Below are positions 11,765-31,292 of a stretch of 64,000 bases of DNA, in pieces (the stretch's first letter is position 1; every line of letters begins with the position of its first letter). Source of the DNA: Halorubrum sp. CBA1229 (GTDB lineage: Archaea > Halobacteriota > Halobacteria > Halobacteriales > Haloferacaceae). Made by a program: the position numbers and the translations under genes. The stretch covers positions 2,604,001-2,668,000 of the forward strand of contig NZ_CP054585.1 of assembly GCF_003721435.2 (NCBI RefSeq), in the 5' to 3' direction. Under the pieces are notes generated by a model. It was given only the letters and a program-made list of their open reading frames with translations, was not told the DNA's origin and searched no databases.

Positions 11765-12292
11765 TTTATAAGTAGGTGAGTCCGAATCAGTTGTGAACAC
11801 CTCCAAAGCCCCAGCCGCTCGGCGATACGTCGTTGCGGTCGAGGACGCCAAGAACTCCTCCAAAGCCCCAGCCGCTCGGCGATACGTCGTTGCGGTCGAG
11901 GACGCCAAGAACTCCTCCAAAGCCCCAGCCGCTCGGCGATACGTCGTTGCGGTCGAGGACGCCAAGAACTCCTCCAAAGCCCCAGCCGCTCGGCGATACG
12001 TCGTTGCGGTCGAGGACGCCAAGAACTCCTCCAAAGCCCCAGCCGCGAGGGCCGCGCACGCTCGCTGCGCTCCTCGGTCGCTCGCGTTGCTCGCTCCCTG
12101 TGGTGCTTGCGTCGCCTCCGCGGCCCTCGCGGCTGCCCCTTTGAGTCCCATCCCAACCCGTCCCGCGACCGCAGCCTCACACCTCCCCAGCCTCGTCGGA
12201 CCGGCGCAAGTGCGCCGGTCCGACTCCCTCGCGCTCGGTTCGCGGCCTGTCGGCCGCTCACCGGGGCGCGCCACCGCAGCTGTTTTATAAAT
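11765..12292. repeat. Element A: intergenic palindromic element with conserved boxes
   Basis: Non-coding element bounded by TTTATAAGTAG (11765) and TTTATAAAT (12284). It shares a set of boxes in the same order with element B at 30877-31292: CTCCAAAGCCCCAG, CACGCTCGCTG, CTGCCCCTTTGAGTCCCA, CCAGCCTCGTCG and CGCCACCGCAG. A 17-bp perfect stem joins 12040-12056 and 12119-12135. A second hairpin of 13 bp is at 12195-12224. The left part is expanded by a 57-bp minisatellite. Frames open through it only because 57 is a multiple of three. It could be a structured RNA, a non-autonomous mobile element or both; no encoded protein or target-site duplication was seen. Confidence 0.75.
11801..12045. repeat. 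57-bp tandem repeat (minisatellite) within element A
   Basis: CTCCAAAGCCCCAGCCG recurs at 11801, 11858, 11915, 11972 and 12029, exactly 57 bases apart. The 40-base spacers between the five copies appear identical. The fifth copy continues into the rest of element A. The unit starts with a conserved box of the element, so the array arose by tandem duplication of the element's left part. Identity of units suggests recent expansion or homogenisation. Confidence 0.95.
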
Positions 12293-12395
12293 AGTCTCGA
12301 CGCTGTCCGCAGTTCTTCGGACGACGACGAAGCCGTCGATCGACTCGCGGACTGACCCCGACTCTTTTAAGCCCGGCCGGGGCGACCGGCCGGAC

Positions 12396-30876: not shown

Positions 30877-31292
30877 TTTATAAGTAGATTATAAGCGAGC
30901 GACGGCAAACCACTCCAAAGCCCCAGTCGGGAGGCGGGCGCACGCTCGCTGTCGTTCGAGACGCCAAAGGCGTCTCGTGATGACGAAACGGCGAAGCCGT
31001 TTCGAACCACGCGCTTCGGTCGCTCACTCCGTTCGCTCTCTGCAGTGCTTACGTCGTCATCAGAACGCTCCGCGTTCTGATTGGCTCACGAGAGCAAAGC
31101 TCTCGTGAACGCCTGCGCCCGCCTCCCGGCTGCCCCTTTGAGTCCCACCCGCACAGCGACCGCACCTCACGCCTCTCCAGCCTCGTCGCCGGCGGCTCCG
31201 CCGCCGGCTGTCAGAGAGACCTCCGGTCTCTCTCTACTCGCGGTCGTCGATGACGACCGCTCGGAGGCACGCCACCGCAGTTATTTATAAAT
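30877..31292. repeat. Element B: second copy of the intergenic palindromic element
   Basis: Same boxes in the same order as element A: TTTATAAGTAG (30877), CTCCAAAGCCCCAG (30913), CACGCTCGCTG, CTGCCCCTTTGAGTCCCA, CCAGCCTCGTCG, CGCCACCGCAG and TTTATAAAT (31284). The outer stem joins CAGTCGGGAGGCGGGCGCA (30924-30942) and 31114-31132, pairing over 19 positions with a single G-T wobble, though its sequence differs from that of A. Inside are four short palindromes with 3-base loops (30957-30977, 30984-31004, 31059-31081, 31086-31108). Right of the stem are three more (31188-31208, 31213-31233, 31240-31260). No protein-coding frame. It fills most of the gap before the Vms1-like gene. Confidence 0.75.

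Follow-up and report, generated by a model that had tools for sequence, protein, structure and literature searches.

Insertion sequences of the IS200/IS605 group carry strand-specific hairpins beside conserved single-stranded boxes and are abundant in haloarchaea. REP, BIME and REPIN sequences are dispersed intergenic palindromes, arranged as mosaics of hairpins and associated with RAYT transposases (PMC3116915, PMC3733652). In Haloquadratum walsbyi, the MITE, PATE and SMR families are transposase-free repeats, and canonical transposons and SMRs are commonly >95% identical within a type (PMC3119063). The recurrent G-quadruplex repeats of the Methanomicrobiaceae are intergenic, G-rich on one strand and enriched between tail-to-tail genes (PMC8044849). 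Hairpins may also be remodelled by template switching, which makes compensatory changes and can yield pairing without selection on RNA; its strongest support is the inversion of a full loop, which is rare and short (PMC8794818).

Two intergenic elements, A (11765-12294) and B (30877-31292), are compared with these systems here. Both lie in the window, the whole stretch of 64,000 nucleotides from Halorubrum sp. CBA1229 that was analysed; the genome comprises 3.58 Mb in two replicons, a main one of 3.22 Mb and a second of 0.36 Mb (10% of the genome). With slightly better than even confidence, A and B are taken to belong to a class-wide haloarchaeal set of dispersed, non-autonomous, strand-folding DNA repeats, similar to REPIN and BIME sequences but without a RAYT, for which the working name S1 element is used.

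Architecture of the elements

Both elements were found in the sequence where the first-pass annotation had placed them, and folding gave exactly the stems that it had proposed, with 17 perfect pairs in A (CAGCCGCGAGGGCCGCG with CGCGGCCCTCGCGGCTG) and 19 pairs, including one T-G, in B (CAGTCGGGAGGCGGGCGCA with TGCGCCCGCCTCCCGGCTG). The proposed pairing of AAAG with CTTT around a CCC/CCC internal loop, outside the long stems of both elements, was recovered as well, and fold z-scores ranged from -6.2 to -9.7 against dinucleotide shuffles. The parts of each element are listed in Table 1.

Halorubrum copies share an ordered layout. One to five 57-bp units lead into the core hairpin S1 and its right box, from which a C-rich linker (..CCTCAC[GA]CCTCCCCAGCCTCG) runs to a free hairpin, S2; after these come CTCCCTCGC, the S3 hairpin and GCCACCGC, and the right TATA-like sequence usually lies 5-9 nt past GCCACCGC. 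The S1 core, whose foot is formed by AAAG/CTTT and CCC/CCC, measures ~121 nt, and the composites 260-500 bp. Each 57-bp unit contains a left box, in most cases together with a TATA-like sequence; the spacing is exactly 57 in 66 of 83 cases, and A has five copies of the unit. The units are near-identical beside S1 and decay leftwards, at 11801-12028 as in the left flanks of most copies. At one locus from another genus (L426), exactly 57 bp was found once, without TATA. A protein-coding repeat was considered and rejected, as the TATA-type units contain an in-frame TAA (TTA TAA) and the length of S1 does not keep to multiples of three from copy to copy.

Some Halorubrum copies, B among them, have nested double-hairpin inserts. 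In B these modules (30952-31011, 31057-31111 and 31186-31233) sit inside the S1 and S2 loops and combine fixed linkers (TGATGACGA, TTGGCTCACGAG and CTGTCAGAG) with swappable arms; the second is also present on plasmids of many haloarchaeal genera.

Table 1. Parts of elements A and B, in window coordinates
Element	Feature	Position	Strand	Basis
A	Left TATA-like sequence TTTATAAGTAG	11765..11775	.	Sequence
A	Four identical 57-bp tandem units CTCCAAAGCCCCAGCCGCTCGGCGATACGTCGTTGCGGTCGAGGACGCCAAGAACTC before the S1 left box	11801..12028	+	Sequence, box search, spacing
A	S1 left box CTCCAAAGCCCCAG, fifth copy	12029..12042	+	Sequence, box search
A	S1 hairpin (CCGCGAGGGCCGCG..CGCGGCCCTCGCGG), conserved apical region ACGCTCGCTGCGCTCCTC..TGTGGTGCTTGCGTCGCC	12043..12132	+	Sequence, alignment, fold
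A	Right box CTGCCCCTTTGAGTCCC	12133..12149	+	Sequence, box search
A	C-rich linker ending in CCTCCCCAGCCTCG	12150..12195	+	Sequence, S3-region table
A	S2 hairpin TCGGACCGGCGC..GCGCCGGTCCGA	12196..12223	+	Sequence, S2 variability, fold
A	CTCCCTCGC, S3 hairpin, right end GCGCGCCACCGC	12224..12278	+	Sequence, fold, pair table
A	Right TATA-like sequence TTTATAAATAG	12284..12294	.	Sequence; right-end enrichment
B	Left TATA-like sequence TTTATAAGTAG	30877..30887	.	Palindromic core; motif also in 57-bp units and most copies' left flanks
B	Left box CTCCAAAGCCCCAG	30913..30926	+	AAAG pairs with right-box CTTT; covariation AAAG/CTTT to GAAG/CTTC
B	S1 outer stem, 5' arm TCGGGAGGCGGGCGCA	30927..30942	+	Sequence, fold, covariation
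B	Nested double-hairpin insert 1 (CGAGACGCC..GGCGTCTCG, CGAAACGGC..GCCGTTTCG)	30952..31011	+	Within S1 loop; seen in further copies
B	Nested double-hairpin insert 2 (CAGAACGC..GCGTTCTG, ACGAGAGC..GCTCTCGT)	31057..31111	+	Common to many other haloarchaea; plasmid matches in Natrinema, Haloterrigena, Haloferax
B	S1 outer stem, 3' arm TGCGCCCGCCTCCCGG	31114..31129	+	Sequence, fold
B	Right box CTGCCCCTTTGAGTCCC	31130..31146	+	96 genome copies
B	C-rich linker ending in CCTCTCCAGCCTCG	31147..31185	+	Kept across copies
B	S2 as double hairpin (TCGCCGGCGGC..GCCGCCGGC; AGAGAGACC..GGTCTCTCT) replacing the usual single hairpin	31186..31233	+	Sequence, fold, S2 variability
B	S3 hairpin and right end (CTCGCGGTCGTC..GACGACCGCTCGGAGGCACGCCACCGC)	31237..31279	+	Sequence, fold, S3 pair table
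B	Right TATA-like sequence TTTATAAAT	31284..31292	.	Sequence; enrichment at right ends

Copies in the genome and their setting

At <=2 mismatches the genome contains 96 matches to the right box CTGCCCCTTTGAGTCCC, against one for a reversed-pattern control, and at <=1 mismatch it contains 154 matches to the left box, against 3 in the control; left boxes outnumber elements because they are repeated in tandem every 57 bp. All 96 right boxes are located on the main replicon, with none on the second (C2), where ~10 would be expected. Element strand on the main replicon is uneven (37 plus, 59 minus, the minus being commoner in the first half), which might reflect replication direction.

By gene calls that are composition-based and rough, 51 sites lie between tandem genes, 26 between tail-to-tail genes and nine between head-to-head genes, and neither strand is preferred at the tandem sites. 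The tail-to-tail excess fits promoter avoidance by a dispersed repeat. It would also be consistent with host elements that act on the chromosome from between genes, such as bidirectional terminators, insulators or nucleoid-protein sites, as would the lack of strand preference at tandem sites, the large size of the hairpins and the 57-bp unit spacing, which is close to the archaeal nucleosome footprint of ~60 bp. Such a role is nevertheless very improbable: promoter avoidance alone accounts for the orientation bias, S1 is not followed by a T-tract, and the content of the sites is not conserved between species.

Covariation of the stems

In the first-pass annotation, the stems of A and B, different in sequence but still paired, were regarded as direct covariation, and a collection of copies by covariance model was proposed. 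This collection yielded many copies with strong covariation, and, in keeping with what had been anticipated, their stems are paired. In an alignment of 58 Halorubrum S1 domains (A1), 97.3% of pair cells are paired, compared with 83.3% in shuffles and 28-40% in slid controls; changes on both sides occur in 20 of 27 pairs, and double-change cells number 206, where shuffles give 53.8. A second alignment (A2) comprises 122 hits from a further ten genera, with 96.6% paired; its fitting to the model biases the pair counts towards structure, and safer measures are the comparison with shuffles (double-change cells, 707 against 182; covariation score, 0.579 against 0.150) and the covariation of the boxes. 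Even these "fixed" boxes covary, as 17 of 270 copies have GAAG/CTTC and one has GAAG/CTTT, and GGAAG occurs with CTTCC in 25 cases in A2. Significant covariation, the property by which structured RNAs are recognised, supports the fold.

The conserved core of S1 consists of the AAAG/CTTT step (or the compensated GAAG/CTTC), a symmetric CCC/CCC loop (GGG/GGG on the opposite strand), a long stem that is perfectly paired but sequence-free and a boxed apical region; boxes, internal loop and apical motifs alike are constant class-wide. Covariation is stronger than could be known from the window. A comparison of A with B alone, however, is insufficient to show compensatory evolution, because stem-loops are replaced as whole blocks and template switching makes pairing without selection on RNA. 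It may even be that the pairing is maintained mainly by template switching and quasipalindrome correction during replication and by conversion between copies, with little or no selection on the fold, and that the elements are drifting repeat debris. The arms do change as blocks, and the seven inversions of ~50-nt loops described below are as predicted for such a process (PMC8794818). The constancy of boxes, loop and apical motifs across the whole class makes this improbable, as do the extension of covariation to short helices broken by conserved loops and the frequency of one-sided intermediates, since single-pair differences comprise 82 one-sided and 118 two-sided cases.

Turnover of stems and sites

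At orthologous sites, the stems have turned over completely between species with pairing retained, since the arms of orthologues are no more similar than those of paralogues. Arm identity is 0.685 at site A and 0.665 at site B, compared with 0.673 for random paralogues within this genome, and the arms are identical in 1 of 28, 1 of 45 and 2.9% of cases, respectively. S2 likewise differs between orthologous sites.

The element is present at sites A and B in about half of the sampled species. Empty sites in relatives, proposed earlier as a way to define the borders, were indeed found: the intergenic region is only 42-151 bp long in roughly ten species at site A and seven at site B. These species are diverged, and neither an empty-site boundary nor an exact target duplication could be defined. 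Among 73 elements of other species, 16 have both flanks in common with a site in this genome, in the same orientation, and 47 match on neither flank; one further observation from this set is an orthologous-site element in the opposite orientation (L223). No transposition events were observed in the genomes compared. We infer that copies come and go and that, within a copy, whole stem-loops are swapped as units. At sites A and B of one genome (G187; L363 and L387), there are partial copies that resemble deletions between short repeats within the hairpins, with the outer boxes left as scars.

Distribution across the Halobacteria

Copies of the right box are found in 42 of 45 Halorubrum genomes, with 6-185 in each and none in the other three, and the exact Halorubrum box is also present in named Halorubrum records. 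A covariance model of the core hairpin (R1) has matches in 150 of 194 Halobacteria genomes (55 of 65 genera), while the other 44 have no match at the threshold used; ten matched genomes from other genera have 5-92 hits each at E<=1e-5. In a sample of 247 genomes from across the phylum, all 31 that match belong to the window's own order, and the ~200 from other classes of the phylum have no S1 match.

The form found in other genera is GAAAGCCCC-stem-GCCCCTTTC-AGTCCCACC. Neighbouring S1 units are mostly inverted pairs there (25 of 30 paired loci, with the G-ends inward), separated by a gap near 30 bp in about half. Inverted ends also exist in other genera, such as AACAGCAAGAAAGCCCC/GGGGCTTTCTTGCTGTT in L144, and Halorubrum copies are without clear inverted ends. 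One genome of the family that belongs to another genus (G196, locus L149) has 72 right-box copies at <=1 mismatch, and all ten right boxes among the matches listed are CTGCCCCTTTCAGTCCC, the class-wide box rather than the Halorubrum box.

In the window and 20 related loci, tRNAs alone reach the gathering threshold of any of 4227 Rfam families, and a permissive search added a few weak sub-threshold hits. Viral contigs and phages gave no element matches; plasmids have no full copy, and the short parts that match, chiefly the inner hairpin insert, are from other haloarchaea. The family was not found described in open-access full text, searched by name and by sequence string; subscription papers lie mostly beyond that search, and an earlier description is possible.

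Inverted loops and strand signals

In six of ~250 Halorubrum copies, the ~50-nt apical loop is inverted between intact arms, with the boxes unreversed. One is in this genome, at 2880997(-), and the others are L166, L248, L276, L343 and L346; a seventh, L423, from another family, is one of ~115 copies from other genera. Inverted loops are the signature that DNA template switching predicts, and recombination between inverted repeats would give them too.

On the G-rich (minus) strand, the outer 12 S1 pairs include 71 G-U against 31 A-C (46 against 17 in Halorubrum, 25 against 14 in other genera), and S3 has 98 against 43, as summed from the pair table; in deeper S1 pairs the G-U excess vanishes or reverses. 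This asymmetry leans towards the G-rich strand as the one that folds, whether as RNA or as single-stranded DNA, and strand-biased deamination could mimic it. The TATA-like ends that had been noted at both borders proved to be a real part of the Halorubrum version, as such a sequence lies within 40 nt at 54 of the 68 right ends, compared with 4 of 1536 windows taken as background. Transcription of Halorubrum copies from these borders is possible; in the other-genus copies examined, such borders are not evident.

These signals raise the alternative of a multicopy family of structured noncoding RNA genes, each transcribed in Halorubrum from a TATA box at one end, probably to give the G-rich strand, and having a cellular function, such as protein binding or regulation of neighbours, for which the fold would be selected. 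Such a family would explain the very strong covariation, the wobble asymmetry in outer S1 and S3 and the near-fixed distance of the right TATA-like sequence, and also the better absolute folding of the G-rich strand and its non-canonical positions, which are G-G and G-A, as is typical of RNA loops. It is nonetheless doubtful. With 0-185 copies in one genus and none in 44 of 194 genomes of the class at the threshold used, the elements are dispensable; the TATA-like borders are not evident in the copies examined from other genera, inverted S1 pairs would place both strands in any transcript, inverted loops persist, and Rfam provides no match. A variant that we regard as rather unlikely is a hitherto unrecognised family of structured RNAs spanning the haloarchaeal class, with as many as ~185 gene copies per genome, in which the G-rich strand would be transcribed and fold around an invariant GGG/GGG loop and the hairpins would be renewed as whole units by template switching. 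Were this RNA family real, selection and a mutational mechanism may jointly keep the fold while erasing the sequence.

A proposed dispersed repeat at the DNA level

The first-pass annotation had left a choice between a functional structured RNA and a mobile element needing a cruciform. The range of 0-185 copies, the turnover of sites, the pairing of S1 units in inverted orientation in other genera and the inverted loops point towards a dispersed repeat at the level of DNA; counting against this, the wobble asymmetry and TATA-like borders are also expected of a transcribed RNA. As such a repeat, the S1 element would spread or be kept up as a folded single strand, either on the lagging-strand template or by conversion between copies. 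By analogy with REPIN and BIME sequences, a putative enzyme may recognise the folded strand by its shape and fixed boxes. The stems would be renewed as whole units, through template switching in the hairpin and conversion between copies, and such renewal would let pairing survive while the stem sequence does not. The Halorubrum version may be transcribed as well.

If this reading is true, folded repeats of an undescribed family are spread through a whole archaeal class with model-friendly organisms: 55 of 65 sampled genera have them, and copy numbers sometimes come close to 200. The family would then be a natural laboratory for how perfect hairpins stay paired during sequence turnover, by compensatory selection or by template switching, a question for which the ~50-nt loop inversions are a rare diagnostic footprint, and a test case for REPIN-like spread without a RAYT. 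It would also be a warning to annotators that haloarchaeal intergenic "GC-rich junk", with its spurious open reading frames, is one structured family.

Comparison with known systems

The level of covariation and the conserved loop boxes resemble those of structured RNAs in Rfam, in which, however, no family apart from tRNAs is matched at gathering score in the window or the 20 related loci. Hairpins that adjoin conserved boxes are shared with the ends of IS200/IS605 elements and with the TnpB omega-RNA; unlike IS200/IS605, the S1 family does not follow the presence of Y1_Tnp and forms inverted pairs.

With the Haloquadratum MITE, PATE and SMR families, S1 elements have in common the lack of a transposase, inverted ends or near-terminal palindromes, the lack of a recognised target duplication and nesting in palindromes (PMC3119063). 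Relatedness of the ends to IS605 transposons is a feature of PATE. MITEs have terminal inverted repeats that match a resident transposon and usually a target-site duplication; neither a transposon nor a duplication was identified for S1. Unlike SMRs, S1 copies share short boxes only and differ fully in their stems.

Similarities to the G-quadruplex repeats of the Methanomicrobiaceae include intergenic location, G-rich and C-rich strands, tail-to-tail enrichment and indifference to strand (PMC8044849). The S1 G-tracts, however, are far apart in a 3x3 internal loop, and the two repeats differ in archaeal class and in sequence. G-quadruplex formation was rejected as the main explanation, as the class-wide form does not have four close G-tracts on one strand.

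A Y1_Tnp/RAYT protein (PF01797) was considered as the mobiliser and rejected: PF01797 has no match in two of the copy-rich genomes tested (G136, with 92, and G026, with 65), it is matched once or twice in those Halorubrum species that are without a right box, and there is no correlation with copy number. In form, S1 elements are similar to REP, BIME and REPIN sequences in being non-coding intergenic palindromes with tens to hundreds of copies and alternating hairpins joined by conserved linkers, and the inverted pairs with inward G-ends recall the inverted hairpin doublets that REP and REPIN sequences form between genes. REP and REPIN palindromes are 20-40 nt long, with a GTAG or CGTC foot, whereas the S1 core, at 121 nt, is much longer and has AAAG/CTTT and CCC/CCC in that place; its stems are sequence-free and covary, and the family is archaeal and class-wide.
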